A stretch of DNA of 64,000 bases from Siphonodentalium dalli (lineage: Eukaryota; Mollusca; Scaphopoda; Gadilida; Siphonodentaliidae), in assembly GCA_032622095.1 (NCBI GenBank), contig CP136067.1, positions 81,246,705-81,310,704 on the forward strand, written 5' to 3'. A program made the position numbers and the translations under genes. The notes below the pieces were generated by a model. That model searched no databases. It was not told where the DNA came from and saw only the letters and a program-made list of their open reading frames with translations. Numbering within the stretch: position 1 is the first letter of the stretch; each line of letters begins with the position of its first letter. Below are positions 12,684 through 61,393 of the stretch, in pieces.

Positions 12684-12752
12684 GCCAATGCATTCTCTTA
12701 TATATGCGAGTCGACCATAGGTCGCCTCGCATATATAAGAGAATGCATTGGC
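12684..12752. repeat. Hairpin module H1
   Basis: Near-perfect stem: GCCAATGCATTCTCTTATAT pairs with ATATAAGAGAATGCATTGGC. The central loop region ATGCGAGTCGACC/GGTCGCCTCGCAT also pairs. Confidence 0.85.
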
Positions 12753-12831
12753 CTAAAAAAAATATTTTTTTAACACTTTTTACCATTTTTTCTTACATTC
12801 TTTAACAATTTTATAATTTTTAATGTGTTAA

Positions 12832-12900
12832 GCCAACGCATTCTCTTATATATGCGAGGCGACCTATGGTCGACTCGCATATATAAGAGAATGCATTGGC
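12832..12900. repeat. Hairpin module H2
   Basis: Same module as H1, with GCCAACGCATTC against GAATGCATTGGC (one G-T mismatch) and GAGGCGACC / GGTCGACTC near the tip. Confidence 0.85.
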
Positions 12901-13206
12901 ACAGGACCCTTCTGTTGGGTAAAGGGTTAATCACAGATTTGTAGTCATGCGCTACATGTGAAAGAAAACACCACATGCAGTGACTGATAGGCTTGTCATT
13001 TGAGCTGCGTTGAACTCCAATTCCTTCAATTTCGTGTTTATTAGGTTATGTTATTGTGGTTGTTCGCAGAGTCTGACTTTAACCCTTTCACGACGGGAGC
13101 TGAACAGGTGCAGCATTAAAGATCCTGTACCAGTGATTTATCTTATATATACGAGTCTCCCATATGGAGTCTCGCATGTTTATATGGGAGTTTACTCCTC
13201 GCATGT

Positions 13207-13734
13207 TTAAAGATGGATTATCTCTTTAAATAACAAATTTTAAATGGTTTCGTGGGTATGAAATAATAGATATGAACTGAAGACCTATGTCCGGAAAAGC
13301 TTCTATCAATTAATATTGATTTTATTTCGAATATTAAATCGGGCCCATTTATGTTACTATTTTTAGAACCGACCATTCGGATGAGACCGTATTGCGATAT
13401 AGAGCACTGGGCTGTTCCTACGGCTACACAACGAATGTCAAATGTCACAGATTGGTTGTTTGTATTGTTTTGTTCCACAGATATAAGCGATAATGAGTAT
13501 AATTAACGTTTATTTGTGACAAAATTGCACAATATAATTTCTGGTCTCTGTTAACAGTAACCACCATTGTTCGTTAGCTGAACAAACACACATCTTTAGA
13601 CCAGAACATATTCGAAATAAAATTAATATTGATCGATAGAAGCATTTCCGGACAGGAGTCTTCGATTCAAATCTAATATTTTATACCCCGGTAACTATAT
13701 AATACATATTTACAAAGAGATAATCCACCTTTAA
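13207..13734. mobile_element. TTAA-flanked MITE (AGGTGGATTATC family), copy 1, 520 bp
   Basis: Inverted ends AGATGGATTATCTCTTT / AAAGAGATAATCCACCT are bounded by TTAA on both sides. It sits inside a hairpin of the host MITE. Removing it with one TTAA restores a stem half (CGCATGTTTAAGAGAATACA) equivalent to the uninterrupted hairpins, so TTAA is a genuine target duplication. A full copy lies at 63455-63989. Confidence 0.75.
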
Positions 13735-13766
13735 GAGAATACATTGGTCTTACAATATTTAACTTT

Positions 13767-13853
13767 ACATTGTAAGCCAGTGGTTTATCTTATACATGCG
13801 AGTCACCCACCGGGAGCCTCGCATATATAAGATAATGCACTGGCTTACAATGT
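13767..13853. repeat. Hairpin module H4 with compensating arm changes
   Basis: The stem has GCCAGTGGTTTATCTTATAC against ATATAAGATAATGCACTGGC. Relative to H1, AATG/CATT has become AGTG/CACT on both arms and TCTC/GAGA has become ATC/GAT on both. The stem extends outward through TTACATTGTAA/TTACAATGTCAA. Confidence 0.7.
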
Positions 13854-13871
13854 CAAGGTAAATATTGTACG

Positions 13872-13939
13872 GCCAATGTATTCTCTTAAACATGCGAGGC
13901 TCCATATGGGAGACTCGCATATATAAGAGCATGCATTGG
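13872..13939. repeat. Hairpin module H5
   Basis: GCCAATGTATTCTCTTAAAC pairs with ATATAAGAGCATGCATTGG, and the tip GAGGCTCC/GGGAGACTC pairs. A variant of H1. Confidence 0.7.
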
Positions 13940-14236
13940 AACAAACTTTTCAAAAAATTTCAACAAACTCCAGTTTCAGGAAGGGTTAACTGTTCACAGC
14001 GATGTAGCGATAGGTGAGGGCGGAAGACAATGAACACTTTATATATTCGTTCCTGAAATAACAAATATTTATAAAATTGAGACTGAAAAACAGATTGCGA
14101 CTTTTCTTATACTATTGTTGAATATTCAACAAATAGTTCAAAGTTTGGAAACCTTTTCTACCTCTGATAAAATAGGGATAATGATGTGATAACGACGCTG
14201 GGAGATTTTGGGGGACAAATATATACTCACATTACT

Positions 14237-14612
14237 TAAGTGAACGTTCAGACAACTACGATACAATGGTAAGTGGAGGAACCGGGCCCGACGAGATCGT
14301 GGATAGTTTGTTCACACGATTGCGATATCGTCGTACATGATGATATCGTATAGGTTGTTTGTAAAGCTGACTGTGATTGACTACCCTGCGATAATTCCAG
14401 CCACGATTTTTACGCACACACGACTGCGATTACTTCGCAAGTGGAGGTATCCAACGATACGCCATGATTTCGAATCTAAAATCAAACAGTGCTTGATATT
14501 AGTTTTGACTTGCGATTCTGACGTGAGCATGCGCAGTCTAACCAACAGTTACTTCCTACGACGGAAATCCTTCCACTTACGATTGAATCGTGGTCGTCCG
14601 AACGTTCACTTA
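14237..14612. mobile_element. TA-flanked MITE, 372 bp, AGTGAACGTTC ends
   Basis: Inverted ends AGTGAACGTTC(A/G)GAC(A/G)AC(T/C)ACGAT extend for about 45 bp with several mismatches (14239 onward, and back from 14610). TA flanks both ends. A 122-codon frame inside is on a palindromic background and is not called. Confidence 0.6.
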
Positions 14613-15089
14613 GAAATGGATGTTGATTTGATTGCGTTCCATGGAGTATGGATGCAAGTTGGTCTGACATTTTGTGTGGAACGCGAAAGGTTCGTGTGTG
14701 GGTGATGACTGATTGTTCATTCTTATAGATTTTTACCCGTTGATCGTATAATCGAGTTTATAGTGGGAACATTAAAGCTTGATAATTATACGAAATACCG
14801 GTATATATACAATGTATGCTCTGAAAAGTCCTACCGAAGACTGAGGGATATTTAATGTATCGATGTTTTGCACAACGGTGAAATAAACGCTCTTTATTCA
14901 TATCATATAAGGAAAAGACGAATATTATACCCTATTTATTGTTTCCAAGTATAAATTTCAAACCGACCAATCCCTCTACCGGTGTTATATTCAGATCAAA
15001 ATCCCAAATTCTTAACAACTAATTAAATAGTTTGTATAATATATATATGACACATCCACATGTGCTGGCTTGGTCTTCTTATTTTTATG
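14613..15089. other. Non-coding stretch
   Basis: It contains the reverse form of the AATAAAGAGCGTTTA...TTGTGCAAAAC motif at about 14866-14905. No gene seen. Confidence 0.3.
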
Positions 15090-15575
15090 TTAAAGGCCCA
15101 CTTAATTTTCAAACCCCCAGATCACACATATAAAATATATGCCATATTATATACCATTTGAAAGGGGAAGCTCTAACTAAAACATTATATTATCAACTTA
15201 TCCGGTGTAATAAACTGTGAACATGTTGTTTTTGTTGAGTTGCCATCGTTGTTTTATCATCTAGATTGCAGTAAAAATCATTATTATTTTCAATGCATGG
15301 GGAATAACACTATATATTAAAGATAGAGTTATTCCCCTTCCATTGAAAAAGTTTGAATTATGTTGCATTCTGGGAGCCAAAAGGGGGGGGGAGTCATTCT
15401 ATGATTTCAGCAGTTTTCTATTTATCTATGGGCATCTTCTGAGACACAGATGTTTCAAATGGTGATGAATTATAGTATTTTAATCATATTTTATGGCATA
15501 GATTGTTATTAAAACCGTATATCAAGTCACTATAAAAAACTAATCGGTGACTCGAAAATTAAGTGGGCCTTTTAA
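15090..15575. mobile_element. TTAA-flanked MITE (GGCCCACTTAATTTTC ends), 478 bp
   Basis: TTAA-AGGCCCACTTAATTTTC at 15090 and GAAAATTAAGTGGGCCTT-TTAA at 15575 are inverted ends. The interior has a smaller stem (GGGGAATAACACTAT / ATAGAGTTATTCCCC) near 15299-15341 and a G-run near 15384. No coding capacity. Confidence 0.65.
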
Positions 15576-15984
15576 TGAATTTTTCGTGCATTCAAAATAT
15601 TTCACAGACACGAGCGCTATAATACGACTACATGTAGTACATGCAATTGTTATACACACCGCAATCGACACATTAAAACGACATTATTATAATTATGAAT
15701 CTTCCCTCACAATTAATGGTTTCATAACACACATACCATAAATTATAGTGTATTGGTTTATTGAGCTCAAAGAATTGTAATTGATGTATATTAGAGTTGT
15801 CATAATCTGTTTTCTCTGTTCTCTAAAACTGTTGTTTTAGTCGTCAATCAATCGGTTTATGAAATAAATCGTGGAATCCAATTGTCGAAAATAGTGAAAG
15901 AAATAACACACCCAACGCATTCCCATTGTCCCCTTGTCCCCGGTGAATGCGTGCATATTTAACATATGGTATAGCCGACAGTGA
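15576..15984. other. Non-coding stretch
   Basis: Nothing recognised. Confidence 0.3.
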
Positions 15985-16890
15985 TCCTTCTGCTATCTTA
16001 GCAAACATTGTTAGTCTGGTCTTGGTGATTCTCTTTTCGATGCTATCTGTGTCGTATCTGCAGGATGTAACACTTCTTTGTATTCAAACTCATCCCCATT
16101 CAACACAGTATTCAAGGTGTTTTAGATCTTTTTTTGAAAAGCTAGCTGGTCTTTGAGTCCTCTAATAGGTCGTTATAAGTGGCAATCTTGTGCGAACAGT
16201 CTGACATTTGATCTGACGCAGTCTGGACGGTCGTTTATCATGCACAAGAAAAGCAACGGTCCTAGAATAAACCTTGTGGCACTCCGGATAGTATAGGCTG
16301 GTTGGGGGGGGGGGGCTCCATTCTACTGTCACCCACATCTCTCGTTTAGTCAGGAATGTTTGCAACTATTTATGAATGTTCACTGATATGCCATAGCTTT
16401 TTTAGCTTTGCCAGTAATTTGATGTCTGGTAAAGTATTAGAAGCTTCGGAAAAATCCAAGATTTTGGATGTCTGCTTGTGGCCTTGAAGTCATGATACGG
16501 TAGCAGGTCTGTTTTGCTGTTAGTGGATGTGTAGTACACGAGTATCCTTTGCCACTAACATGATTTAGTTCTGTTAATATCGTGTTCTCTTCCAGATGTG
16601 TTAGCAGGTTGGCATGCATGTATGGTGTGTTCCACGAGCTTGCAGTTTTCTGAAGTGAGGGACACCGGACGGCAGTTTTCGGGCAGATGTACATCGCCTT
16701 TTTTGAACATTGAAGCAATGGTCGCCTTTAGCCAGTCACTTGGTATATATCCTGTTGGTCTTGACCTCTGGAAAATTTATGTTAATCCTGGAGCTACTTC
16801 ATGAACCAAAGTTTTAAGTTCCACATTTGGCATTTGGTCGAAGCCGGCAGCTTTATTGTACACTAAATCCGGCCATTTTTGGGACCATCT
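15985..16890 (-). pseudogene. CR1-like LINE reverse transcriptase remnant
   Basis: On the minus strand the conceptual reading from 16860 downward follows the reverse transcriptase order of CR1/L2-type LINEs. First comes NKAAGFDQMPN...LVHE, then SDWLKATIASMFKKGD, NCRPVSLTS, LLTHLEENTILTELNHV, TFLTKREMWVTV, and VHDKRPSRLR (normally ..FLVHINDLPSRL). The GVPQG and FADD catalytic blocks are destroyed by frame changes, and stops interrupt the frame. It retains only part of the RT domain; 5' and 3' ends are not visible. A dead copy. Confidence 0.7.
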
Positions 16891-16938
16891 CCTTTTATAC
16901 TAAACAGAATATATGTAACTAATGAATGAATTTGAGCT

Positions 16939-17102
16939 ATGGATTAGTGCAAAATACACTCATTTATCGTATGAACAATACAAACAACATGGTAATTATA
17001 ATGAAAATGAATTTATGACTGGAGTCATAGATTCATTTTCATTATAATTACCATGTTGTTTCTATCGTTTATAGAGCACATGGGTGTTTTGCACTAATCC
17101 AT
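16939..17102. repeat. Foldback element, ~160 bp
   Basis: Palindrome with outer arms ATGGATTAGTGCAAAA.ACAC / GTGTTTTGCACTAATCCAT and a perfect inner stem AACAACATGGTAATTATAAT with GAAAATGAAT. The loop is TTATGACTGGAGTCATA. Probably a MITE; no clear target duplication. Confidence 0.7.
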
Positions 17103-18179
17103 GGCGAATCGTCGCTAAACCACCCTTCCCGTTTATCTCCGTTAGATGTTTATTCTGGGGAATTTTGGGCTAAAATTTCTGGGGCGGCTTGGGGTAATAT
17201 TTGGTACATTTAATCGTAAATAGCAAATAGTGTATTTTCCGTGCAAAATAGTGGATGTTTTGTCAACAGTGCCGATATTTTCGTCATGGGTGACCATGTT
17301 CTGACTCACCTACAGCATTATATATCGTTTTCTCTGTCGTTCCATGCACCACTCATTATACTCATAACGTACTGGAAAACAACCATATTACTGGGGAAAC
17401 ATAAAACCAATAATACATACTCTCCATTTGTCCGGAATCTTTGGTTTAGTGCCGAGCTCTAAATTCCCGTCTCCACAAATTACTCAAAAACTCGGAGTGC
17501 CTCGTTGGTTGCTCGGAACGGCCTCTGATTGCTCGGAGCGGCCTTCGATTGATTCCCACGTGTGATAACAGGAAGACGGATGGATGCAAACAAACAGAAC
17601 TATATGCTAGTATTACGCCAAACGTATCAACATTTGTAGTTCTCAGCACAGATCAGGGGATAATGAAAACAACGGAGAAAACAAACCGGGCATATCAGTT
17701 TGAGAAATATAGGTATCCATTGCTCCGAACGATAGTATAATATGACGTGATGTGGTAGTCCGAAATAACGTGGGGTATTTCACCTATTCTACGAACATAA
17801 TTATAAGAGTAGAACATTCCTACCACGGTGAGATTTTGGCTTCGATATTTAGATTAACCACGTCTTTGGATGGTATCTCACGAATTTCTTAACAATGCCA
17901 AGATGCCTCATTATAGTTCCAAGGTCACTGGAATGGAAAAGAGGCAACAAACAAACTGAATTTCGTTGTTATTGACTAGAACATTATTCGACATATCGGG
18001 GGTGGATGGCCTTTTAATTGCTCCTTCTCTTCTACAATCTAACCCCAGCAAAAGCACTCCTAAAACTCAAAATAAGGACTCGGGTAATTGCTCTCTATGA
18101 TGACCTACATGGCAACATTTATATAGTGGAAAATAGTGTTGGATGCAGTGTTCTAAAATGGAGCGGGGTACTTGATAAT
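17103..18179. other. Non-coding stretch with a short internal repeat
   Basis: Around 17490-17550 the phrase TTG(C)TCGGA(A/G)CGGCCT occurs twice in tandem. No gene is recognised; open frames here are short. Confidence 0.3.
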
Positions 18180-19359: not shown

Positions 19360-19362
19360 GGT

Positions 19363-20817: not shown

Positions 20818-20932
20818 TTAACCCTTCCATGACTGGAGCATTGCTAATATTTTTGCGAAATATTACTGAGATGTTCCTCTGCGCGCGCTGGCTAGAACAT
20901 GATTGAATTCATCAGAACCCAACGTGTAAATT

Positions 20933-21326
20933 TTAATCCTTTCGTGATAAGATCTCGGCTGATGCAGCATTAAATGTAATGTCTAAATTTTGCCAGTCAT
21001 AGTTTAACTCTTTCACGACGGGAGCTGCGCTGAAGCAGCATTAAATATCCTGTGCCAATGCATTCTGTTATATATGCAAGTCTCCCAAGTGTAGACTCGC
21101 ATATATAAGAGAAAATATTGGCCTAACAATGTTTAGCTTGACATATTCTCTTATATATGCGACGCTCCCTATTGGACACTCGCATATATAAGAGAATGCA
21201 CAGGCATAGGATCTTTAATGTTGTACCAGCGTAGCTCCCGTCACGAAAGAGTTAAACTATGATTTGCAAAATTGATTATTTACATGTAATGCTGCACCAG
21301 CCGAGCTCCTGTCACAAAAGGGTTAA
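20933..21326. mobile_element. Middle shell, TTAA-flanked palindromic MITE
   Basis: TTAATCCTTTCGTGATAAGATCT and GATGCAGCATTA on the left mirror TAATGCTGCACCAG, GAGCTCCTGTCACAAAAGGGTTAA on the right. Its own arms meet at a TTAA (GTCATAGT-TTAA / TTAA-ACTATGAT), which is the site occupied by the inner element. Confidence 0.6.
21004..21255. mobile_element. Inner TTAA-flanked hairpin MITE, 244 bp
   Basis: TTAACTCTTTCACGACGGGAGC at 21004 and GCTCCCGTCACGAAAGAGTTAA at 21255 are inverted ends. It holds two hairpins (21054-21122 and about 21139-21204) of the same module as the 12.7 and 61.2 kb elements, despite a different TIR. Confidence 0.7.
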
Positions 21327-21470
21327 AAGTGGCACCTAGGGTTATACACCACTGACTTTCTTTAATACCGTCTTATAATTTACACGTTTGGTTTGATAAT
21401 ACCCTTCTGATGAATTCAATGCTGCTCTATCCAGCGCACGCTGCCGAGCATCTCAGTAATATCATCTTCT

Positions 21471-22194: not shown

Positions 22195-24055
22195 TTATAT
22201 TTGTAGATCTTGATGTTATCACGACTGTTTATACATCTGTAGTGTTTCTGTCGTAATTACCTTTTATAACTTTATATATTTGTAGTGTATTTTCTGTCTT
22301 GATGTTGTAATGGCCGTTTATATATTTGTAGTGTTTCTGTCCTGATGTTATAATGACCATTTATATATTTGTAGTGTTCTGTCTCGTTATAATGACCGTT
22401 TATATATTCGTAGTGTTTCTGTCTTATGATAATGGCCGTTTATATATTTGTAGTGTTTCAGTTTTGATGTTATAATGGCAGTTTATATGTTTGTAGTGTT
22501 TCTGTATTGATGTTGCAATAGCCGTTTATATATTTGTAGTGTTTCTGTCCTGATGTTATAATGACCATTTATATATTTGTAGTGTTTCTGTCTTGTGATA
22601 ATGGCCGTTTATATATTTGTAGTGTTTCTGTTTTTATGTTATAATGACTGTTTATATATTTGTAGTGTTTCTTTTTTATGTTATAATGACTGTTTATATA
22701 TATATATTTAGTGTTTCTGTCTTGATGTTATAATGAGTTTATATATTCGTAGTGTTTCTGTCCTGATATTATTATGACCGTTTATATATTTGTAGTGTTC
22801 TGTTTTGATGTTATAATGACCGTTTATATATTTGACTCTTTGTGGATTTTTTGGCTTGATGTCATGACAGTTTATATATTTGTAGTATTTCTGTTTTGAT
22901 GCTATGACAGTTTATCGATTTGTAGTGTTTCTGTCCTGATGTTATTATGACCGTTTATATATTTGTAGTATTTCTGTTTTGATGTTATACTGACCGTTAA
23001 TACATTTGTAATGTTTCGGTTTTGATGTTATAATGACCGTTTATTTATTTGTAGTGTTTCTGTCGTGATTTTGCATGACCGTTTATATATCTGTATATTT
23101 TTTGTCGTGATGTTGCAATGACCGTTTATATATTTGTATTGTTTTTGTCTTGATGTTATAATGGCCGTTTTTATATTTCTAGTGTTTCTGTCTTGACCGT
23201 TTATATATGTGTAGTGTTGATGTCTTGTTGTTATAATGACCGTTAATATATTTGTAGTGTTTCTGTTTTGATGTTATAATGACCGTTTATATATTTGTAG
23301 TGTATCAGTTTTGATGTTATAATGACAGTTTATATATTTGCAGTGTTTCTGTGTTGTTGTTATACTGACCGTTTATATATTTGTAGTGTTTTTGTCCTAA
23401 TATTATAATGGCGATGACCGGTTATATATTTGTAGTGTTTCTGTATTGATGTTATAATGGCCGTTTATATATGTCTAGTGTTTCTGACTTGACCGTTTAT
23501 ATATGTGTAGTGTTTCTGTCGTGATTTTGCAATGACTGTTTATATATCTGTGTTTTTGTCTTATAATGTTATAATGGCCGTTTATATATTTGTAGTGTTT
23601 CTGTCATGTTATTATAATTACCGTTAATATAGTTGTAATGTTTCTGTTTTTATGTTATAATGACCGTTTATACATTTGTAGTGTTTGTCGTGATTTTGCA
23701 ATTACCGTGTATATATTTGTAGTGTTTTTGTCTTGTTATAATGACCGTTTATATATGTGTAGGGTTTCTGGTTTGGTGTTATAATGACCGTTTATATATG
23801 TGTAGGGTTTCTGGTTTGGTGTTATAATGACCGTGTATGTATTTGTAGTGGTTTTGTATTGGTGTTATAATGGCCGTTTAGATATTTGGAGTGTTTCTGT
23901 CGTGATGTTGCGATGACAGTTTATATATTTGTATTGTTGTTATAATGTAATGGCCGTTTATATATTTGTACTGTTTCTGTCGTGATGTTGCGATGACAGT
24001 TTATATATTTGTAGTGTTTCTGTATTGATGTTATAATGGCCGTTTATTTATTTGT
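22195..24055 (+). repeat. Minisatellite, ~43 bp unit, about 43 copies
   Basis: The unit reads TTATAATGACCGTTTATATA, TTTGTAGTGTTTCTGT and CTTGATG. Copies vary by substitutions and by loss of GATGTTA-type segments, which shortens the period in places to about 30-40 bp. Two neighbouring units near 23757-23820 share a distinctive AGGGTTTCTGGTTTGGTG variant, a sign of local duplication. No spacers or repeat-spacer pattern as in CRISPR. Confidence 0.9.
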
Positions 24056-24633
24056 ATGTCTCTATAAAGTCACCGGGAAGTCTTCTGAATTGTATAGATA
24101 TCAGATTTAGTTGGCTAGTCTATATGTGGTACTGATGGTTACTCCACTTATACAGTATATGTACTTAGAATATACTGTACTCTATCAGAATGTTATAATC
24201 TTGCATTTAAAAAAAAATCATATACTAAAACAAATAATTAGTAAACATAATTACTCCTTGGGAATCGATGAGGTTATTATGTTTACTAAATTTTAATAAA
24301 ATAATTAAATTAATGAAGTTAATCTAATAGCTATTATATATAGTTTCGATGGGTGGACGGATTACCAGTATTTAGTGTGGTGCTGTTAATCCTCTTGTGA
24401 TGTGCCCTTCTGGTGTAGCAACCCTACTATCATTTTATTGTTCTGTGATTGGTTTATTGTTTTATGATGAACCACAATAGAGATGCGGGTATAATTATTA
24501 ACTAACTGCTTTTCTACCTATATCAAAAGTCGGTCAAGCCGCGAGTGTTGAAATATAAGACTTAATGTTGCAGAAAATGGTACTATCCGGATTAGCGTTT
24601 GGCAAATTCTTACTTCTATGTGGAAACTAAACG
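24056..24633. other. Non-coding stretch
   Basis: A short inverted pair AGTAAACATAATTA / TTATGTTTACTAA lies near 24240-24290. No gene seen. Confidence 0.3.
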
Positions 24634-26900: not shown

Positions 26901-27116
26901 TTAACCATTTCATGACTGGAGCTGCGCTGGTGCAGCATTACAGATCTTGTGCCAGTGTAATTCTCTCATGCTAGTCTTACTATTTTACACATAAATTATA
27001 ATAATTTGTTTATATATATGCATATTTGTCTATAATATTACATAGCAGTATACTATATAATTCAACATAAAAAAACTCCAATCATAGTAATTTATTATCG
27101 CCAAGGGATGGGTTAA
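26901..27116. mobile_element. Degenerate TTAA-flanked hairpin MITE
   Basis: The left end TTAACCATTTCATGACTGGAGC then GCAGCATTACAGATC matches the 21.0 kb family. The right end is GGGATGGGTTAA. The hairpins have decayed into AT-rich sequence. Confidence 0.5.
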
Positions 27117-27304: not shown

Positions 27305-27521
27305 TACAGTAATGCCCAAAGTAATTGACCACTTAACCACATCAGAATTATGGGTAATTTTTCAGGATTTAGTCGGAAATATGGCTTGTTGCCATTCATC
27401 GGAAAGCTCTCGATGAGAGCTTTCAGATAAATGGCAACAAGCCATATTTCCGACTAAATCCTGAAAAATTACCCATAATTCTGCTGTGGTTAAGTGGTCA
27501 ATTACTTTGGGCATTACTGTA
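27305..27521. mobile_element. 213 bp nearly perfect palindromic MITE, TA-flanked (mariner-like)
   Basis: Element 27307-27519, TA on each side. Ends CAGTAATGCCCAAAGTAATT / AATTACTTTGGGCATTACTG are perfectly inverted. The arms stay paired almost to the centre (GGAAAGCTCTC/GAGAGCTTTC). The TACAGT start suggests the Tc1/mariner group. A shorter relative is at 57081-57231. Confidence 0.8.
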
Positions 27522-29738: not shown

Positions 29739-29739
29739 C

Positions 29740-35885: not shown

Positions 35886-38492
35886 CATGTACGTTTATGT
35901 GCGCATTAATGTGTTGGCATTATATGATTTATATCGTCACACATCGTTGTTATATCAAACCTGGCGCCAATACTATAACAAAAATTATATAAGGTAAAAT
36001 GAAAGTCAGTGGTTTGTAACCATATAGGCTGGTTCTATTGATATTGTACGAAGCTAAAGTTTTACAAAATAAGAATCACATCACAAGAAAGCGCATGTGT
36101 CCTGCAGTATATTACTATAAAGTTTACTGTCTTGTAAATTACACGTGCAAAAGTTTATAGTATTGGTCCCAGATCCGCGATTGCCACGCTAAAAGGACAC
36201 GCCATGGTTTTCTTATTGGCCAACATGGGGTATTAAATATATTTTAGGATTTTTAATCAAACAAAATGTTTGAAATTATTATTATTATTATTATTATTAT
36301 TATTTATTATTATTAGATAAAATGCACGTAGACGCAGTACTCGACATGCGGATTAATTCGAAACAATTCGACGAATCTGTGTGGCCTTAGCGCACGTCAA
36401 TGGCTATGTATTTCTGCCGAAAATAAAGTTGTGTAAACAATGCATATATTACGGTCCCAACATGCATACTTGACATTATGAGAATGGAGGCATATGTTGG
36501 ATGAGTGGCAGGAACGGGTGTGTACCTCAATAGAAAGAAGTCTGTTTAGAACTCCGAGGTAATTATTATTATTCTGTCACGATGTTGAGCCACAAAAACA
36601 CCTATTTTATGTAGTCTCAAGTTTGTTCCAGTGTGGGTTTTAGAGTAGCTGTTTTATGGCTATCCATATAATAGACACCGGTTGTCGTTTTAGCTTTTTG
36701 GTCGATATATATCGGGTGGTGAGTTATTTTCATGTATTTGCCACACACACAGAAGGCAAACATTGCCAGGTATAACTTGATGTGCACATTATGTATAACA
36801 ACAGAGCATACTACTTGTATTTCAGACTAACTGCATTGTAATTCCATGGGACAGTTTCTGTCTTAATGAATATCGCTAATGGTTAATTAAGCTAACACTG
36901 ATTGTATTGATAGTTAATACATCCGACCACGTGAATTATTAAAGGGCGGGAATGACTCATATTACCGTTTCTATATGTGAACACATAATCGTTTAACGAC
37001 TGGCTGGTTTAGATAGTCTGCTGCATACGCAGATTTCCGTATACGTATGACCGATAGCTTGGCTTTGAGACGAACCGTTGCATACTCGTTGTTATACCAA
37101 GTCTTCTAGATAGACAGATTGATATGTTTATTAGCAAAGTACATATCAATCAGTAAACAAAACCGAGTGACAATTTATTAATGGTTATTATGATTGTTGT
37201 GTGTAATATATATATAATTATATATGTACTTTGCCTGGGATGGACATAGCCATGGGCCGGGCTGTCTTTCTGTCCCCCCCCCCCAGAACTATATTAATTA
37301 AAAAAATCTGACCTTGGCTGACAGGCACATGATTGTACTGCATGTATCATGTGAAATATTCATGTTGTGGGAATTTTTCACGGTGGAGTGAGCACTAATC
37401 TTTAATCCTCTGGGGCTTTTTTCTAATATAAATGATTGGTTGATTGTTTATTTGGCGAAATAGTGAAAATATATAATTATGTTTACATCAATTACATATA
37501 AGGATAGTATAACAGTATATCACCGGGGGGTGTCATAATATCGAGGAGTCTTCCTGTCAACCACTGGCGCATATGTGGTGACCAAGGCCTGATTATATTA
37601 TCAACGTATGACAACTGGAGGAATGTAACATTCTACTAACATCGATCGTACCACTCCATAGAAAACATCGTCAGAACTATTCGCACTTGTAAATATTTAC
37701 TACTCGAATCGGGACGCATCTATCTGCGATAAACTAACGAAAACTATTTCGCCATCGAGAGTCACTGCATTTAATTCATATATAAGAATGACGGTATGTG
37801 TTGTCAATTTGGATATACTATTTGTAAACAATTACTGCTTTGACAAGATTATTCTCCATTTCTATTTGATCACCATTCCGGAATGTTTCATATCACTATA
37901 AGTTATATCATTATTTGAGTTGCAGTTATCTGAGTTGATACCCTGTCTGAGACAGTTATAAACATAAATGCCACCCACGGTTATATGTGCAGGATGAGAT
38001 TCATTGTTATTTCAAGATATGGATCGGAAGAGAAGATAGGACTAGCGGTGTCGTTTTTCTGCGTTCAGAGATAATTGAGTACGGATTCGAGATTCAAATT
38101 TCATTTCGGAAGAGAAATATGGGTGAGAAGCTGTATTAAGTTTGATTTAATTAATGGTGATGCATATGTAGTCAGTGAGTACATTCCGAACAATATGGGT
38201 TATCGCAAGTCACTTGTTCTGGGTAAGAGCCAATGATTTTACTGGTTAGTTTTCGATTAAACTTTTACGAATCCCTTCCGATCGGAGTTCTTTTTTCTGA
38301 CCATCCAAAATTTAGGAAACTCAAACAAGGGTAATGATTCAAGGATTTTTATTCGAGCTATTGGTGTTTTAAATGTTTCTTTTTGGTGCCTATTACTACA
38401 GTTAAGATCAAACATGCTAATAAATACTCTGGGAATTTACCATTGTTTAATTCTAACATGAAAAGGGAAATATTGAGTTCGTGGATAACCCT
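35886..38492. other. Intronic stretch with microsatellite
   Basis: An (ATT)n run at about 36279-36316 and a poly-C run near 37276. No gene or paired repeat recognised in the rest. Confidence 0.35.
36279..36316 (+). repeat. (ATT)n microsatellite
   Basis: Uninterrupted trinucleotide run with one slipped unit. Confidence 0.9.
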
Positions 38493-38632
38493 CACTTTTA
38501 GAAATATTTTTTTTAAACAGGGGAACCGTGTAAGAGTTATATCTTTTATTAGACCCCCTTTTAACAAAGGAGTATAATAGAAGATATAACTCTCACACAG
38601 ATCCCCTGTTTAAAAAAATAAATCTAAAAGTG
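38493..38632. repeat. Foldback, ~140 bp
   Basis: CACTTTTAGA.ATATTTTTTTTAAACAGGGG pairs with CCCCTGTTTAAAAAAATAAA and TCTAAAAGTG, with AGTTATATCTT against AAGATATAACT inside. Adjacent CGTCCGTCCGTGC follows at 38650. Confidence 0.7.
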
Positions 38633-40742
38633 ATAATACTGATTTGCACCCGTCCGTCCGTGCATGCGAACGGCTCCACGCACGTCCGTCCGATGTCTTT
38701 TCATGTCATAACTTGAACAGTAGTCATGCTCGGGTCACAGTGAAATTTGATATGAATGTTCACTACTATGAGAACATTCAATCGTGGTTTCCATCGTTTT
38801 GTTCGGATTTCCATTCTAGAGTTATTCATCTTTGTTTATCTGGAAATGTTGGCTTTTTGGTCCGTCCGATGAATGTTCAGGTCATGCTGTTCCAATCAAT
38901 GATAGTTCGGCAAAAGAAACTGAACTTGTAGAAGTCGTGGTCTGGCTGCAATGGAATATATTTTTCTGGATGGTGCCCTCTGTTTTCACTTGTCTGATGA
39001 ATTATGTACTTAGGCATCGTGATTGCTGTCTTTTCGTGCTTCGCTTTGTGGAACGTGAGAAGTCTTTTTAGGATGCAAGTATGATCGCTATACCGAGGAG
39101 GCAATGGCTCATAATTATAGGACGACCCTCACCTAACAGACGATGAGACAAAGGCGTTAAGTGAGCACTTGCCAGGAATAATAACAGCATCTGCTAATCT
39201 TTAGGGGAAGGTGACTATCATAGAAACTAGGGGCAAATTGCTAGATAGTATTCTGTGCGCACGGCGACCCGATGACGCGCCAAATAATGGATCTCTTTGA
39301 GGGTGGCTGCCACCGCACAAATATTAAAGGGTGTGTATGCGTTACAGATGAGTACCTGCGAACGACAAACGTAAACAAGATGATAACATTTGGCAATTGT
39401 CTTATCTACTTACCAGGCAAAATATTTAAGTGCTACCGTTAAGCACTTCAATAAGAATTTGTACCCTCAAATTGGCTGGCCGCATGCACCTATAACTACT
39501 AGATATATAGGTCCTCCGCTTGTCTTCTACCAATGGGTGATCAAAGTTGTCTTCTCTGCTTTATAGAATGGTAATAACAAACTTTAAATATGCAAAGAAG
39601 CACAACTGCTACATGTATATTATCTTGCAAAAATGTACCGATTTCGATAGAGTAATATAAGCCTGACCCTTAAAAGTGTATACAAGGTTATTTGAGTTAC
39701 ACATTTTTCTATTTCCGGCTTATATCCTTAATTTAATTATATCTGGCATTGACAGAAACGTATGCCCTTTTCTGTAATTTCTAGCCCTTGTATTATTTTT
39801 TCTTCTGAGCGCATGCAACGAATACGACCAGAGAACATCAAGGAGACCGTTCGGACATCGAAAACTTAAGCTCACTTATGGACTATTCCGGATGCCGGAC
39901 ACGCATAAGCCGAACGCCACCGAGATGATATTTCGGATGCTACACATATAATTACCTATGTTTTCATGCAATTATATTTGGAAAATTTGATGAGTGAGGT
40001 AGGTTTCTATTTATGTAGCTGATCTTGAAAATGGGTCTCAACCTCATCGAAGGAATTCAAGGTCCTTAAATTGGCAAGATGTGTCTGATTATCGAATTAA
40101 GTGTGGACATACATGGCCTTATTATTTGTGCGTCGTGTTCATTTACCGGTACTCTATAATAAAATTATTACTAACCATACAATTGCGTCTAGATTTATAA
40201 TGACTTTTTGGCTTGATATCTGGATTCCAGGAGAGGGTATCGTTAGTAGATGACCCTCATTCGTGACTGCGGAGGGTGATGTTGGTGAACTTCGGATTTC
40301 CAATTGCATCTATCCTACAGGACTAATCTAAATACCTATTTCACATTGACCTTGACAATGTCAAATGCAATATCTCTACTTTATTATATACTACATACAT
40401 GTATACACGATTCCATAACACTATACAATGATGTAATTCAGTACAGTGATTGTCAAGGAACCATCCATTGAGCAATATATAAGTAACACGACGCTCTGAT
40501 AATCGCACAGGATATGAGAGACTGATTGGCTAAGCCGTTATATATTTGATGTTGTTCGCCAGCATACCATTATGAGGTCAGTGACTGCTCACTATCGTCT
40601 AATGGATTGAATCAATATATAACTGATACTATCACAAGCTTTTTTTTTTATTAATACGAGCGATATATTATACCATACATTATTCACGTCATGTCTGTAA
40701 CCATTAGGTCTGGGAGCAGCGTGCATGTGCGAGCTTCCTGGG
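38633..40742. other. Intronic stretch
   Basis: 38640-38900 is a GTCC-tract repeat (see 26220). No gene seen in the remainder. Confidence 0.3.
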
Positions 40743-51540: not shown

Positions 51541-51584
51541 GTACTCAATCAGATTCGGTGGCCTCCATATCATCAGATTCCAAC

Positions 51585-53214: not shown

Positions 53215-54674
53215 GGATAGGATAGGATAGGATAATTTTAGTTACAATATACACACATGGAAAGTACAATTACAAATAAATATAATATTGATAGACTATA
53301 CATGTATATTGCTAGGGGTGATATAGTCATGACTGACTGTCTTCCTATCACCCCTGGGTGTGGTGACAGATTATATGATGAAGATGGCCGAATTAATTTT
53401 ATTGTTTTTAGGTTACGTTTATCGTGTGCAGACTGGTTTTTTTGTATATATAGGCGTTGTTAGGGCGATGGTACGAAAAGTGGTTCATATGTATGGGCAC
53501 CTACTTGGTCGATATACTGAATGAATACTATGAATATTCATGTGTGAGTGGAACCGAGTAGGAATAATGTGAGTGAGGTTTTGGGAATGTTTTTTGTTTT
53601 TGTTATCAGAAAATTATATATCGTTTGTGCAATCAGGGCATCTTCGGTTTTTGCATCGCACGCTAGCTGGATAGGTATTAATAATATCCGTTTTCAAACG
53701 TTTTCGGAACACATGTCTTGATTGTTTAGAGGTATATTTACTTTCAAGGGAATTCCACATAAAGGGGAATGAATGGTATGGGAGAACTTTAGAAAAAGAG
53801 ATGGTCCTGAATTTTTTTTTGTACTATAGGATTAAGTTGTCGTCTATTTGGTTCCGCTCTCTTGTCATACATACCATAAAAAGACACTGGTAAGCGATCG
53901 TAGTACCAATCATGCATGAAAATGGATGCATGTAATTTATGTAAATCATTTATTTTTAAAATGTTTTCTTGTTTGAAAAGAGGATCGGTGTGACTTCTAT
54001 ATTTTTTGTTACATATAATTCTCATGGCTCGTTTTTGTAATAAATATAGTTTCTTCACTGCTGGCACATGTCCCCATATTTGGATGCCATAAACTAAGTG
54101 GCTTTGAATTAGGGCGAAGTATAATGTTTTGAGAGCCTTGCTCGGGAGAAAATGTTTAACTTTATTAATGCAATAAATTGCATGTGCCATTTTTGAGCAT
54201 ACAATAGAAATGTGTTTATTAAAGGTCAGGTTTTCATCTATATGGATACCTAAAAATTTGGCAGACGATTCGCTCCGCATGTTCCCTATCCGTAGAAGTT
54301 CGGCTCCATTGAGATATATTTTAATTGTATTCCATTTTTTGTCATTGTTTTGTGGATGCAAGAGCATATAATTGCTTTTGTTAGCATTGATGGCTAGTTT
54401 GTTGCAGCAACACCAGTCAGATAGATTTCTTAATTCGTTATTGACATAACTTTGGATTAACGCTTCATTTTGTCCACTGGCCATAAGGGTTGTATCGTCG
54501 GCATATGATAAGAGATCCATAGTAGTTGCATTTGACATATCGTTCACGTAGAGGAGAAAAATTATGGGCCCGAGTAAGGAGCCCTGAGGAACACCACATG
54601 ATGTTTTTAGGAGATTTGACTTGCTTCCATTGAATTCTACGTATTGTCGTCTCTCATTGAGATCGCTTATTTGT
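53215..54674 (-). mobile_element. 5'-truncated Jockey/CR1-type LINE, 1460 bp
   Basis: It starts mid-RT at the right-hand duplication, carries an intact C-terminal RT frame and a ~570 bp 3' UTR. It ends at the left copy with a pentanucleotide tail (plus-strand GGATA repeated four times, i.e. TATCC on the element strand). Truncation, simple-repeat tail and target duplication identify target-primed reverse transcription. The clean frame suggests a young insertion. Confidence 0.85.
53789..54673 (-). pseudogene. LINE reverse transcriptase, C-terminal ~294 residues
   Basis: The frame is open from the truncation point through GVPQGSLLGP (residues ~27-36) and the catalytic YADD (~57-60), then LSDWCCCNKLAINANKS, SAKFLGIHIDENLTFNKHI and a C-terminal LQKRAMRII region. 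This order (RT palm, thumb and connection) is that of Jockey/CR1/L2-type LINEs, where the enzyme copies LINE RNA at the nicked target. The fingers and the upstream endonuclease are missing, so it cannot act by itself. There are no internal stops. GTG at 54547 is not a real start; the frame continues upstream to the duplication. Confidence 0.85.
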
Positions 54675-55472
54675 TGAATTGCCTAAATTTGCCAGTCCTT
54701 TTGCAGAAATGACTGAATTTTAGTGCCAGTCATTTGGCCATATGCCTGTTTTGTGATAATTTAGGGATTAGAATATAAATTTTTTATGAAATGTTATTTA
54801 TTTAACATATAGTGTAACACAGAATACACAATGATATGTGGTAATTATTAAATACATCTCATTTACTTGAACATTTCGTACTTAAGTGGCATCTACTGTT
54901 ACACAACGCATTTTTTATAGCAAAGACATCGCCTTTGTCTTGCATCTCTTAGGTCCATAGCAATTTCATGTTAGAAATCCCTGACCACCGTGCTGAGACT
55001 CAGTTTTGTTGATGTGGCGAAGAGACATACGGCTGCCTTCGTTTATGTCACATTCACTTAGCAGTTTATGTGGACACACATCAAATTGGTGACGGCTATA
55101 TTTCACTTTAAGCACAACAGAAGGGCAGCCGATCGTATATTGTCCGTTTCCCACACCCAATAGAACTCCTTTATCATTCGATCACGACCACCGTGGCCAG
55201 TGGCTATGTGAGAACGTTTGATAACATCAACGTCGCCTCGTATGAACGACGCCTTTATTGGAATATATGACATCTTCATAGGATGTTATTTGACTGTTTG
55301 CCTGCATGGAATCATAGTTCCTGGCTGTTTGCCTGGAATCATAATTCCACAGGCAATATGTCAAAGTCAGGACACTAAATTTCAGTCATTTGTCCGAAAT
55401 ACTTAACAATTTGGCATTTCACCAAATGAATGACGTTCACGATCATTTAGTCAAATGACTTGTTTGACTGTA

Positions 55473-57080
55473 TAACACAATAGAAACGATGTTTAGTTTG
55501 TTCAGTTGTGAGAGTATTTTTTTTAGATTATTTAATGGCAATGATATATATCTATACAATTTATACAAAGTTGACAAATGTATACATATTGAAATAGCAA
55601 TGTAAATAATTTTGGATGGAAAAGCGGTCGACATTAACATATCTCTGTGAGCTCACTATCTAGATGTATATAATCAAAACAAGATTTAACCAATAAAGTT
55701 TTAAGATGGTTAGTCGGTGGTATTAATATTAATAAATTTTATTATTAATACTGGTCAGCCTCTATAATTAAATATATCATTACCAGGGATAACACATAAA
55801 GAAGGTCAAAAAAATCCCTCTTAATTCCATAGTGGTCCCCAATACTTATGATAGGTTCAATTACGAAGACTGTCCAGTCTTAAAAGGATATGGCCAGTTG
55901 GAGATAATCAGAAACATATATTAGGTACACATATATATGTATCACATTACTATGAAAATGTGTGTGCTTTATAGGACAATACCGTGGTGTGATAATTCGG
56001 AATAGTGATTCACCAACGAAGAATTGTCCAATGACGCCAGCGTGGACCACGATGCGATTTATGATAAACACAATTTCCCAAATATTTTGTTGGCTTTGCT
56101 GTTTCCTGGATGTATTACCGAGAAAAAGCGTAATCGTTGTAAGCAGTTTACATAACTGCAAAGTGTGAGACATGAGTGTGCGATACAGACGATATCATAT
56201 AATGGCAAGCGCATTAATTTGTCGGGAATCAACATATTATAAGGAACGATTAACAACGATGACAAAGAGATGTCAGAGATGTGACTATATATTTAGAAAC
56301 ATGTGCGTAACTGGTCCCGCTATAATTGTATGGTGTTGGTGGGTCCTGTCAAGTTAACTATCGTGTTCGAATATAGTGGGACAAAGATATGCTAATATAA
56401 TGACACACAGTATCGACTCGTATACCATGCGTTATATAGCAACTACATGTATATGACCAGCTAGGTCAATGCCATGTTTAATTTTTTTATTTCACTTGAG
56501 TGTATGGTGATCGGGAGAGAAGTAGCATATAAGTGGCCCGCACTTGTTCTTCAATCCCGTTGCCGACTGTGTGTATTTATATGCATATATGGCGAATAAA
56601 TATGTTTAAACCAGCTAGGTCGACCAGACCGATAAAGTTCCCGTTGCATCTAGCCTCCATATAGTGGCGTTGATAGGATCAATGTCGCAATCTGCATCCG
56701 TATATATTGCAGTGCATGAACCTTTCGGCTAAAGACGCACTGGTCCATGTGCTACCACGACCGAGTAACTTTATAACCCTGCATGTGGTAACTCAAGTAG
56801 CTTTCTTTAACGTGCACACATCGAGGCGTGTACACATATCAGCCATTAATGTCCGCGCCCGACCGAACTGCGTATTGCAACCACGATAACATACCTGGAC
56901 AAATCATCACAAATGTTGTAATTGGGGAAGTCGGCATTTTGACTTCGGATCTTTATTCAGTGATCTCGAATGAGACTTTTCAGCCTGAAAAACTTGGTAT
57001 CTGACGTAGTTCCGATTTTATCAGAATACCCTGACCAGGTATAGCTATCCCCGGTCCGCTAGCACGAGAGATCAGTGTGC
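55473..57080. other. Non-coding stretch
   Basis: A small inverted pair around 55720-55760 (GGTATTAATATTAATAAATT / TTATTATTAATACTGG). No gene recognised. Confidence 0.3.
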
Positions 57081-57231
57081 TACAGTAATGCTCTAAGTAA
57101 TCGACTCCTTAAACACAGCAGAATTATGGGTAACTTTTCAGGATTTAGTCGGAAATATGGCTTGTTGCCATTCATCGGAAAGCTCTCCACGTGCTGTGTT
57201 TCGGAGTCGATTACTTAGGGGCATTACTGTA
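57081..57231. mobile_element. TA-flanked mariner-like MITE, 147 bp, one arm shortened
   Basis: CAGTAATGCTCTAAGTAATC and GGATTTAGTCGGAAATATGG match the palindrome at 27305-27521. Here the second arm retains only the outer ~40 bp (TTACTTAGGGGCATTACTG), so the large stem is lost. Confidence 0.7.
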
Positions 57232-57391
57232 CCTCTCACCTACCAACTTCAATGCATCGATCAGATTCGGAGCCAGCTATTAGCCGATGATCACATTCGT
57301 AGATGTTTATATTCTCACACAGAAATAGATTAGAACGAGCAAACGGAATAAAACGATTAGAACAGATTTCCACAGCTTATAGACGTCAAGT

Positions 57392-57594
57392 CAATGTCGC
57401 GGAAATGGAAAATTGATGTATCCTTGCTCGAATATTACTCCTATAACTGTAAGAACTATATTGGATGACCTATATGCGCTTCATATTCCGCATATCTCGC
57501 GACAAACAACGAGATTCGAAAAGCTAGCTCTACACGAATGTGATCGATGGCGAAATACTGGTTACAATGACAGTTTTGAAGAGTTGGCTGTGAA
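57392..57594 (+). CDS. Candidate exon, unrecognised
   Basis: After CCACAGCTTATAG| an open frame runs TSSQCRGNGKLMYPCSNITP, then ILDDLYALHIPHISRQTTRF and EKLALHECDRWRNTGYNDSF, to a strong donor GTGAAA|GTAAGT. It has a protein-like composition. There is no recognised domain and no partner exon was located, so it may be spurious or part of a transposon. Confidence 0.2.
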
Positions 57595-57686
57595 AGTAAG
57601 TGTTCGATGCTTTGTGTCAATGAACCCAAGCAAGGCGTTGTCTGGAACCTAAATATATTGGGACTTGGAAAGTGGTCTGGCTATAC

Positions 57687-58447
57687 TTAGAGGATAAACA
57701 TGCGGTCTAATGTGATTTTGGGTCGTTTATCGGTGGTTGTATAATGCAGTTTACGGAATGTTCCCAGAAGTACTATCTTTTGAATTTCAGTCAAGTATAC
57801 GTTTCCTGGTATTTTCTCAACATTGTATTCCATCTTCGGTTTGATGAGTCCCAATGCCCCGATGACTATGGGCACAATAGTTGTCTTCATATCCCACATT
57901 TTCTTGACTTCATATTGGAGATATGTGTATTTTGACAGCTTTTCAGACTCCTTCACAATAACAATCTTTTCTGATGGGACAGTCATATCAAGTAAGTAAC
58001 TTGTCCTTATTATATCGGGCCGGTTCACCTTGTTTTCTTTATCAATGTACACTGGCATATCCCACAAAACGGTGACTCTGTCATTCTGAGATACAGTTTT
58101 TGGCTGATGGTTATTCCAATTTTGACATGTGTAAACGTTGTAATGTTTCAGTATAGTGCACATAACCAGCTGCCATGTTGTGTCTATGCATGTCCTCTGT
58201 TTTAGCCAGTGCTGGGCATCATTAAATCAGATGGTCGATAGTTTCTTCAATCTGGACACAAATCCTGCATTTGGAGTCGATTGGTTTGTGTAAAAATTAT
58301 ACTGTCAATTGTCTGCGCTTCGATGTACTCCAATTTCGACGGAGTGACATCGTTTGGATTTCTCATGCTTGTACACTAATTTCAAAAGACTGTCACTGGT
58401 CTGTTTCAGTAAAGTATCAAGGCCGATGGTGGATGTTTTGTAAGCGA
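57687..58447 (-). pseudogene. R2-like C-terminal region: CCHC knuckle and restriction-like endonuclease
   Basis: Starts with EFAYKTSTIGLDTLLKQ. A CCHC motif follows (CRIC...DHLI then two stop codons then C), and then the intact 158-codon frame with VTVLWDMPVY, RPDI, DMTVPSEKI and EKLSKYTYLQ. The endonuclease of R2-type elements has PD-X(12-14)-D; here only about eight residues separate PD from the next D, so the catalytic spacing appears deleted. This domain nicks the insertion target in active elements. Confidence 0.75.
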
Positions 58448-59223
58448 ATTCAAGTCACAGGCCCCTGGGGAAAAATAATAGTATACCAATATATACTATA
58501 CCGGTGACAAGATTCTCAAGGTCCGATTGTTGGGAAATCACACCATATATCATATTCATCATAGATTCTCAAAATCGTTCATCTCAGTCACATTATAGTT
58601 CAAGGTGTCTTATTGGCAATGACATTTCCTTTCCTTTGATGTATAATTCGATAATATCAAACGAAGGGAAGTCGAGATAAAATCTACTGAAAATTTGGTT
58701 GTAAAATGCGTCGTCAGTGTCCCTGTCCGCCTATACTATCCTCAATAATTCTAAAAAAATTATCAACTCAGCCAAATGCTGCCCCAATGTATGTTATCGG
58801 GCATAACATTTCCTTTCATTTGACACATAACTTGACGGAGTGAATTGAACCGAAGTCGACATACCGAACGGGGAATTTGCAAGTTTGGAAATTGTGATCG
58901 TAATAATTGAATTGGTATCCGTGTATAATTATTATACTTACCGGACAAGGAAGCTGACGACCGCTTTTTGTCGGTAGGTTTCGCTAGTTTGCGATACGAT
59001 ATATCGACTTCCCTTCATTTGATACTATCAAGTTATACATCAAAAGAAAGGAAATTTCATGGCAAATAAGACACATATTAAAACTGAGATCAGCGATTTT
59101 GTGAATCTATGAGGAATATGATAGATGGTGTGTTTTTCCCAAAATCGGATTTGTGAACCCTGTCACTGGTATATTATATATTGGTATATCTGGTATTTTT
59201 CCCCAGGGGCCTGTGATTTAAGC
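58448..59223. mobile_element. hAT-like foldback MITE, 760 bp, inside the R2-like relic
   Basis: Element 58456-59215. Ends CACAGGCCCCTGGGGAAAAA / TTTTTCCCCAGGGGCCTGTG, flanked by ATTCAAGT and ATTTAAGC (6 of 8 matching, an aged 8 bp duplication). Inner arms TCTCA(A/C)AATCG, GTGTCTTATT.GC.ATGA(C/A)ATTTCC and TTTGATGTATAA also pair. Removing it restores the LIQL-FAYK junction of the host protein, though the host needs a frame change there. Confidence 0.75.
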
Positions 59224-59888
59224 TGGATGAGACTCCACCTCCGGAATATCTACGTAAGTATATTCGATCTATATCAGCTTTGGGATGATACGTTCTCCCA
59301 ACAGTAAATGTTACTCTTGTTTTAGAATCCAGCTTTCTTAGTTCAGTAACGGTCCAATTGATGATGTTAACGGTGTATGTTAAGACTGGAACTGCAATGG
59401 AATGCATGGCTTTTACTTTGCTGGCTGCATTAAGATCACTATCGATCAACAAATGCACTATATGCGATATGCAGTGCCTCTTTCGTAATTTTGTGTCCAA
59501 TGCCGTTCTTCGCACGAACACCTGAATTGTTCTATGCTTCCTCCTGATATAATTACCTTATGATAGTATCGGGACCTGATACTACACTGGTTGTTTTCAC
59601 TAATGTCCCTTCGCAAAACTTCTTAACAGTTTTGGCCATGCCTTCTAAAGCATCACAATTTTTAGCATACAGTTTCAAGTCATCCATATACACGTACAGC
59701 AGATGGTTGAATGTTGATCATCTATTACGAAACAATAGCCTGTGTTGTTCAAATGCTGGAATAAGACCCACGCAGAATAACAGAGGAGATAATGAATCTC
59801 TTTGGGAGATTCCTCTGTGGATATTCAATTCTCTAGACTGGATAGATCCATATAAGTGAGTCAATGACATCGATGTCTTCCATTTGGT
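59224..59888 (-). pseudogene. R2-like reverse transcriptase palm and thumb segment
   Basis: The conceptual frame from 59888 gives MTKWKTSMSLTHLYG, IHRGISQRDSLSPLLFC and the catalytic YMDDLKLYAKN (after an internal stop). A separate 115-codon frame at 59174-59521 follows with AMHSIAVPVLTYTVNIINWT then VTELRKLD and YHPKADIDRIYL. This matches R2-type RT followed by thumb. At least one stop and frameshifts are present. Confidence 0.75.
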
Positions 59889-60496
59889 CATGATAGCAGG
59901 GTCCGCGCTGGACTGAAATTTACTTTTGCCAAATTATTTGCCAAATGAAATATTTTTTGCCATATTCTTTTTGAATTTGCCAAATTTTATCCCCGATAGT
60001 ATCATTTTCAGCAACATTGATTGGATGTTATGTATCGACACTCACGGTTTGATGACGTTTGGTATCAATACGAAAGTTCGTTAATAATTATACTCGCATC
60101 TCTATTATGGTTTACCATACAACAAAAACAAATCACCGAACAATAAAGTGGTAGAAGGATTGCTTCATCAAAAGGGCACACCACAAGAGGATTAGCGATG
60201 TAAACACAACCATCACACTAAATACGGGTAATCCCTCCACCCAATCGATATTAATGCTATCAGACTTAATGGAGGTGTTAACTTTTCCGAAACCAAGTAA
60301 AACACCACTAATATAATTCTATTGTATTCTCCTCAAATGAAAATGGTATTGAATGACCGATATTTTTCAACTTTATTGAGGAATTAATAAGTGACTTGCC
60401 AAAACGTTTGCCAAATGAAAATATTTTTTTGCCAAACGTGAATTATTTTTGTCATTGGCAAATTTGCCAAGTGGCAGCGCGAACCCTGCATGATAG
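59889..60496. mobile_element. hAT-like MITE, 592 bp, perfect 8 bp duplication
   Basis: Element 59897-60488. CATGATAG is directly repeated at 59889-59896 and 60489-60496. Ends CAGGGTCCGCGCTG / CAGCGCGAACCCTG are inverted with one mismatch. Subterminal blocks TTTGCCAAA and TTTGCCAAATGAAA(T)ATTTTT occur several times in both ends, as expected of transposase-binding sites. An 8 bp duplication with CAGGG-type ends points to the hAT superfamily. Confidence 0.85.
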
Positions 60497-60990
60497 TTTT
60501 AAGAAAGTTGATTATATTGGGGAGAGATTATGCATTTGCATGACTTCAATGATCCAGCTATGGGGTATACTGTCAATCCTTTGGTAGTATATCCAGATTA
60601 CTATCATGTTACGATTTATTTTCTTAGCATCTCAATAATCATCATGCATGCTGATCACAAGTTTGTATTTACATCCACATGACCCCCGTCTGCACCATTT
60701 CTGTTCATAAGGCCATATGTTATTGCGATCTAAGAAGAGCTACAATCGTTCTGACACTATGGATATAATCAGTTTTTATGTGGTGGTAAACGTATTATTG
60801 GTATTATCACGTTGCATCACTTTTAGTAAGAAGGTAAGTAACTTCACATATAAGCCAGTCAGGTGCCTTCTCTTGGGTGTCAATGAGATATGTGAACTCT
60901 CTCACTAAATCTTGGTTTGAATCACTCAATGATGTCAACCAAAAATTGGGCAACTTATCCTAACCTGGTGATTTCCAGCTCTGACACTTT
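60497..60990 (-). pseudogene. R2-like reverse transcriptase N-terminal segment
   Basis: Conceptual frames give SWKSPG(stop)DKLPNFWL, FTYLIDTQEKAPDWL, TYLLTKSDAT, PYEQKWCRRGSCGCKYKL and IDSIPHSWIIEVM in order. These are equivalents of the family's WKAPGPD, LPKS, C-RRGS-GCKDQL and FDSVPHSW blocks. Several stops and frame changes. Confidence 0.7.
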
Positions 60991-60993
60991 TAA

Positions 60994-61393
60994 TTAACCC
61001 TTTACCCAACAAACCGGCCAAAACCGGCCAAATAAAGCTTCAACAGCCTAAAATATCTTCGGTCTGTCTCAATAGAACCATACAAATATGGATATCATTG
61101 GAACCGTCTCCTTGACCACATTGTGATAGTTACAGTTATGCCCTGTGCCAATGCATTCTCTTATATATGCGAGTCGACCATAGGTCGTCTCGCATATATA
61201 AGAGAATGCATTGGCCTAAAAAAAATATTTTTTTAACACTTTTTACCATTTTTTCTTACATTCTTTAACAATTTTATAATTTTTAATGTGTTAAGCCAAT
61301 GCATTCTCTTATATATGCGAGGCGACCTATGGTCGACTCGCATATATAAGAGAATGCATTGGCACAGGGCCCTTCTGTTGGGTAAAGGGTTAA
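60994..61393. mobile_element. TTAA-flanked hairpin MITE (piggyBac-like), copy 2, 392 bp
   Basis: TTAA at 60994-60997 and 61390-61393. The ends and the two hairpins (61147-61215 and 61295-61363) are as in the 12531 copy, with about six substitutions. It is inserted in the R2-like relic just upstream of the SWKSPG block. Confidence 0.85.

Follow-up and report, generated by a model that had tools for sequence, protein, structure and literature searches.

The nine near-palindromes of about 69 bp described here probably form the interior of non-autonomous piggyBac/TTAA-type DNA transposons (MITEs). Their half-sites would have increased in number through template switching or fold-back (inverted) duplication, and the symmetry of their arms would stem from the copying of one arm to the other and not from selection for pairing. 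The elements that carry them are real, if somewhat unusual, MITEs of a known kind. All counts given below are from the window alone, that is, the whole stretch of 64,000 nt that was analysed (Siphonodentalium dalli, CP136067.1). The window has a G+C content of 37%, tandem arrays, many inverted-repeat elements and a frame for a LINE-like reverse transcriptase (PF00078, E 8.2e-15); by these features it looks eukaryotic.

The near-palindromes lie in four elements, each with TTAA at both ends and C[C/T]CTT termini, which bears out the TTAA flanks claimed in an earlier note on this DNA; a further site in the window has a single arm. E1 (12531–12930, +) is a TTAA-flanked MITE of 400 bp with a 14-bp TIR, CCCTTTACCCAACA, at both ends, and carries two hairpins inverted to each other, H1 (12684–12752, +; 32 of 33 pairs) and H2 (12832–12900, −; 31 of 33 pairs), H2 being an inverted copy of H1 down to its asymmetric mismatch. 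A second copy, E1′ (60994–61393, +), with H8 (61147–61215, +) and H9 (61295–61363, −), differs from E1 at 6 positions in 400 bp; two of the four elements are recent copies of one family. That E1 and E1′ lie in different flanks supports reading the TTAA as the target site of a mobile element; for none of the four elements was an empty allele observed. E2 (21004–21255, +; 252 bp) has TIR2 ends and contains H6 (21054–21122, +) and H7 (21137–21205, −), in which the outer 8 pairs have decayed. It sits in the central TTAA of E3 (20933–21326, +), a TIR2-type MITE that lacks the module and, without E2, is a near-perfect palindrome of 146 bp. E4 (13079–13989, +; 911 bp including a 524-bp insertion) has TTAA ends, TIR2 on the left and a right end that is different or strongly diverged. 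It holds three hairpins, H3, H4 (13776–13844, +) and H5 (13872–13940, −), of which H3 is split by the insertion: its outer arm, loop and an internal duplication occupy 13129–13206 (+), and its inner arm continues past the insertion at 13731–13748 (+). The inserted sequence (13207–13730, +) is itself a TTAA-flanked element with ends AGRTGGATTATCTC and has a second copy at about 63455–63989. The single-arm site, X (26901–26975, +), is a degenerate end consisting of TIR2 and one outer arm with AGTG.

Assignment of these elements to the piggyBac/TTAA class follows from TTAA at their ends, termini of the form C[C/T]CTT and bodies that are small and non-coding, and is a fit rather than a proof. MITEs of this class are described, in the accessible part of that account, as having TIRs of 12–19 bp with a CC[C/T]T terminal motif (PMC2872659). 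The TIR of E1 fits this motif; E4 ends in CCCTT on both sides with little match beyond, the terminus of E2, CTCTT, is one base off, and X ends in CCATT. The link to piggyBac rests on ends and target site, since no transposase gene, only a reverse transcriptase, was found among the 36 longest of 93 frames (at least 75 aa). Pfam gave no match for the frames 61237–61647 and 13221–13502, the two scanned frames that overlap the hairpin elements.

The presence of nine hairpin copies, proposed earlier, was confirmed both by matches to the arm core and by DNA folding. With up to 3 mismatches allowed, an 18-base arm core matched 17 times in the window against 0.06 expected. DNA folding energies of the eight 69-base hairpins ranged from −16.7 to −37.8 kcal/mol, with z from −7.1 to −16.0, whereas the H3 fragment at 13129–13206, the 3′ part of which lies beyond the insertion, reached a z of −2.7. 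No 69-bp stem with at least 26 of 33 pairs occurred in 200 shuffled windows in which composition was kept in 200-bp blocks. The window itself has 9 such starts, 7 of them module hairpins and 2 (27379 and 38529) parts of other palindromes; H3 (20 of 33 pairs) and H7 (21 of 33) fall under this limit. A profile search of the window gave no further full copy and added X at 26901, with an E of 0.0065 for its decayed outer arm and of 2.5e-17 for its end, although X was itself in the end profile. Of the positions given earlier, three need correction: the copies placed at 13767 and 21139 run from 13776 to 13844 and from 21137 to 21205, and the one at 13129 is interrupted by the 524-bp element, so that its 3′ arm continues only from 13731.

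The description of the hairpins as pairs holds for E1, E1′ and E2, with two each, but not for E4 with its three. Within each of E1, E1′ and E2 one hairpin repeats the other in inverted orientation, and what had been called a pair is therefore a single long inverted repeat that has a palindrome in either arm. We call the arm that faces the element tip outer and the arm that faces the spacer inner; the layout is then one of four half-sites, each about 33 bp long, in the order outer, inner, spacer, inner, outer. Arm position 28 is T in the outer arm of all 8 hairpins in which an outer arm is defined, and the inner arm has G there in 6 of 8 cases, the exceptions being H8 with A and H6 with T; in H4 the left arm has T and the right one G. 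The position is mismatched in 8 of the 9 hairpins, in both families (T.C type in 7, T.T in H8), and is paired in H6. The mismatch gives the module a polarity. It also suggests that arm-to-arm copying has spared position 28 since the families split, H6 perhaps excepted. The mismatch lies near the loop.

The terminal repeats of the elements with the module fall into two types, which agrees with the earlier claim that the hairpin persists while the terminal repeats differ. The core is joined to TIR1 in E1 and to TIR2 in other elements, two end types only; TIR2 occurs with the core in E2, E4 and X and without it in E3. These combinations point to an exchange of cores and ends, and recombination between MITEs may have joined the core to its two sets of ends.

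Two of the six differences between E1 and E1′ fall within the 138 hairpin bases, against 2.07 expected. The one at 12837 breaks a pair in H2, and since that at 12725 falls on the already mismatched position 28, only 12837 bears on compensation; neither change favors a hairpin kept for its structure. In three comparisons among the ends of E2 and E4 the outer arms were 18–24% different and the 50-bp ends 14–20%, and we found no sign of an extra constraint on the hairpins relative to the ends. The comparable decay of arms and ends in E2 and E4 is what would be expected if the palindromes were mere by-products of MITE formation, made by fold-back duplication of a transposon end, having no present function and decaying copy by copy. 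The loss of arm parts in H7 and X, the further inverted duplication in E4 and the occurrence within the window of E3, a palindromic MITE that lacks the module, are also in line with this possibility. However, E1 and E2 can be aligned over their hairpins but not over their ends, and E1 moved recently with its hairpins nearly intact. On balance we consider the by-product explanation rather unlikely, if still a serious one.

It is also conceivable that the two-hairpin unit (227 bp in E1) is a former independent element that inserted into the middle of other TTAA MITEs. The insertion of E2 at the center of E3 illustrates how a palindromic MITE can gain a symmetric core, and the existence of TIR2 elements with and without the core would be accounted for. 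Yet no target-site duplication was seen by eye at the CCTGTG border of the unit, and the flanks are inverted rather than direct, which leads us to think this origin improbable.

An argument for copying comes from the changes that had been cited as compensatory, AATG/CATT to AGTG/CACT and TCTC/GAGA to ATC/GAT. Both arms carry AGTG/CACT and ATC/GAT in only one of the nine hairpins, H4, and in the split H3 the variants are found on one arm only. When H3 is put back in register, its outer arm has G5 and A12 and its inner arm A5 and C12, that is, variants without compensation; X, for which no second arm was found in the window, has G at position 5 with no partner. H4 lies at the center of a 161-bp palindrome (13730–13890, +) made up of the inner arm of H3, a spacer, H4, a spacer and the inner arm of H5, and thus crossing both spacers. 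Between the inner arms of H3 and H5 a single column out of 27 is different, and both contain variants absent from the other arms. A comparison of the two H4 arms gives 3 differences in 27 columns, and either arm has 4 against the outer arm of H3. The both-arm variants of H4 are best explained by a single inverted duplication of the segment comprising an inner arm, a spacer and half of H4; H4 would be symmetric because this duplication made both its arms from one. The cited changes fit this one event, which tells against compensation for the sake of a structure, and H4 offers a clear example of how both-arm changes in a stem that look compensatory can arise from one inverted duplication. In RNA genes, one template switch can create or mend a stem or give a multi-base block of seemingly compensatory changes, according to the accessible text of PMC8794818. 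We propose the same here for H4 and for positions 30–31, a both-arm block close to the loop (see below), with the differences that our case concerns MITEs and that H4 requires a longer inverted duplication.

Covariation over the hairpins as a whole was counted in 8 of the 9 copies, H3 being left out, and compared with 500 column shuffles. The number of pairs with a change on both sides was 4, the shuffled mean being 4.0, and 323 of the 500 shuffles reached as many. The other measures lean towards covariation, as weak signs: 88.6% of cells were paired (86.8% in shuffles; reached in 49 of 500), 8 cells had both sides changed (5.7; reached in 65 of 500), and the covariation score was 0.110 (0.081; reached in only 29 of 500). 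The structure also beat its slid versions on cells paired and on score. Six of the 8 both-side cells, however, are at positions 30–31, a contiguous block at which both arms differ between E1, with its four near-identical hairpins, and most of the hairpins of E2 and E4. This block speaks for pairing, but it can be the outcome of a single template switch.

For H1, H3, H5, H6 and H7 the arm differences within hairpins summed to 26 over 27 columns, against 27.6 when outer and inner arms were paired at random (28 of 120 permutations as low), and to 40 against 42.4 over 33 columns (25 of 120). Adding H4 gave 102 of 720 permutations over 27 columns and 92 of 720 over 33. With H2, H8 and H9 added and H4 taken out (8 hairpins), the corresponding figures were 3480 and 816 of 40320, but here the near-duplicate hairpins of E1 and E1′ enter as independent rows. 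Over 27 columns, outer arms were on average 4.5 apart from one another and inner arms 5.3; an outer and an inner arm were 5.6 apart when taken from different hairpins and 5.2 when they shared one. Arms that share a hairpin thus resemble each other hardly more than arms that do not. The hairpins are few and the power is low, and a weak covariation effect may still be compatible with these values. On this small sample covariation is not clearly above control, with both-side pairs at the shuffled mean and a pairing permutation of 28 in 120. Nor is there support for the module persisting as a structure rather than as a sequence, given a mean column identity of 87% over 8 hairpins and both-side pairs at shuffle level. 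Compensatory evolution was rejected on the 161-bp palindrome, the shuffle counts and the arm-pairing permutations.

No hairpin matched Rfam at gathering score, and a role as a source of dsRNA is not supported by anything beyond the stem itself. Although the stems are strong, with z down to −16, we regard it as very unlikely that the hairpin is kept as a structure, either as cruciform DNA or as a transcribed hairpin giving dsRNA or small RNA, with compensatory changes in its arms; the mismatch at position 28 in 8 of the 9 copies also tells against it.

The inner part of a TTAA MITE being better conserved than its ends has a precedent in the CMITEs of Acropora corals. These are small TTAA elements, most families of which have CCCTTT ends; from family to family their TIRs are less well conserved than the inner region, and a new element was formed when one CMITE inserted at an inner TTAA of another. 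Their authors call the origin of the core unclear and suggest a role in transposition (all in the accessible part of PMC2872659). The likeness lies in a core better conserved than the TIRs, seen here between E1 and E2 over the hairpins and with two end types only, and our elements are a further case of TTAA MITEs with a common core and different ends. A CMITE measures about 100 bp, of which the core takes up about 75 bp, and that part of the source mentions no pair of palindromes, whereas the core of ours is two inverted palindromes of 69 bp. Comparing the published CMITE core of 60 bases with the window gave nothing convincing, the best match covering 13 bases at an E of 0.10.

If the half-sites have a function, the most natural one, and a plausible one by analogy, would be that of sites at which a piggyBac-type transposase, acting in trans, binds double-stranded DNA, and not that of a folded structure, because the transposases of piggyBac and piggyBat bind palindromic sites near the tips through two cysteine-rich domains of the transposase dimer (PMC11707139, in its accessible portion). 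According to the same text, the 19-bp palindromes of piggyBac are identical and stand at asymmetric distances from the tips, as do the palindromes of E1 (149 and 26 bp). It is a doubtful suggestion that, in recognizing and pairing the ends, a piggyBac-type transposase relies mainly on the paired 69-bp palindrome with its polarity mismatch. In that case the terminal repeats would be replaceable, and one core could be mobilized with different ends. The four-half-site layout offers a defined test of subterminal palindromes against TIRs in the recognition of piggyBac-type ends.

Further observations run against the main reading of the hairpins as inner parts of piggyBac/TTAA MITEs. The palindromes described for piggyBac and piggyBat in the text available are 14–19 bp long, not about 69 bp, and the likeness to them is one of layout. 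The distances from palindrome to tip, asymmetric in E1, are 46 and 46 bp in E2; more precisely, 45–46 bp separate the start of the arm from the tip in each of the four E2 and E4 ends and, by coordinates, 46 bp in X.

Neither the 18-base arm core nor the TIR2 pattern had a match in viral contigs. The arm core had 4 matches in bacterial genome contigs, which were dropped; about 7 would occur by chance in 257 billion bases, by our own estimate. Neither the arm core nor any of four TIR strings turned up in a text search of the open-licence literature, and in the accessible portions of that literature a search for published accounts of TTAA MITEs with paired palindromes led only to the relatives compared here, namely CMITEs, piggyBac/piggyBat, the template-switch cases and Kolobok/T2-MITE. 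The last of these have TTAA targets and ends starting with AG, as stated in the accessible part of PMC6004289. In both respects they resemble the 524-bp element inserted in H3, while the hairpin elements differ from them in starting with C[C/T]CTT and not with AG.

The TTAA elements between 20818 and 21500 form a nest of three levels, in which E2, the miniature element carrying hairpins H6 and H7 (21004-21255), lies within E3 (20933-21326) and E3 in turn within an older inverted-repeat element with arms of 58 bp (20860-20917 and 21405-21462). The insertion point of E2 is the central TTAA of E3, and E3 without E2 is a near-perfect palindrome of 146 bp, tip to tip.

The 524-bp TTAA element is present in two copies in the window (13207-13730 and 63455-63989), and its ends start with AG (AGRTGGATTATCTC), as described for Kolobok/T2-MITEs. 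Within H3, the hairpin whose inner arm this element splits, a duplication was seen by eye at 13160-13206.

We also found a palindrome of 217 bp at 27305-27521, with arms matching at 96%, and a related arm at 57081-57187. Two further inverted-repeat elements (38492-38633 and 16936-17105; arm identity, 84%) showed, as far as could be seen, no kinship with the ~69-bp hairpin module. Tandem arrays occupy 820-2423 (unit, 164 bp) and 22208-24063 (unit, 43 bp), and a LINE-like element is represented at 53789-54682 by its reverse transcriptase frame (PF00078).
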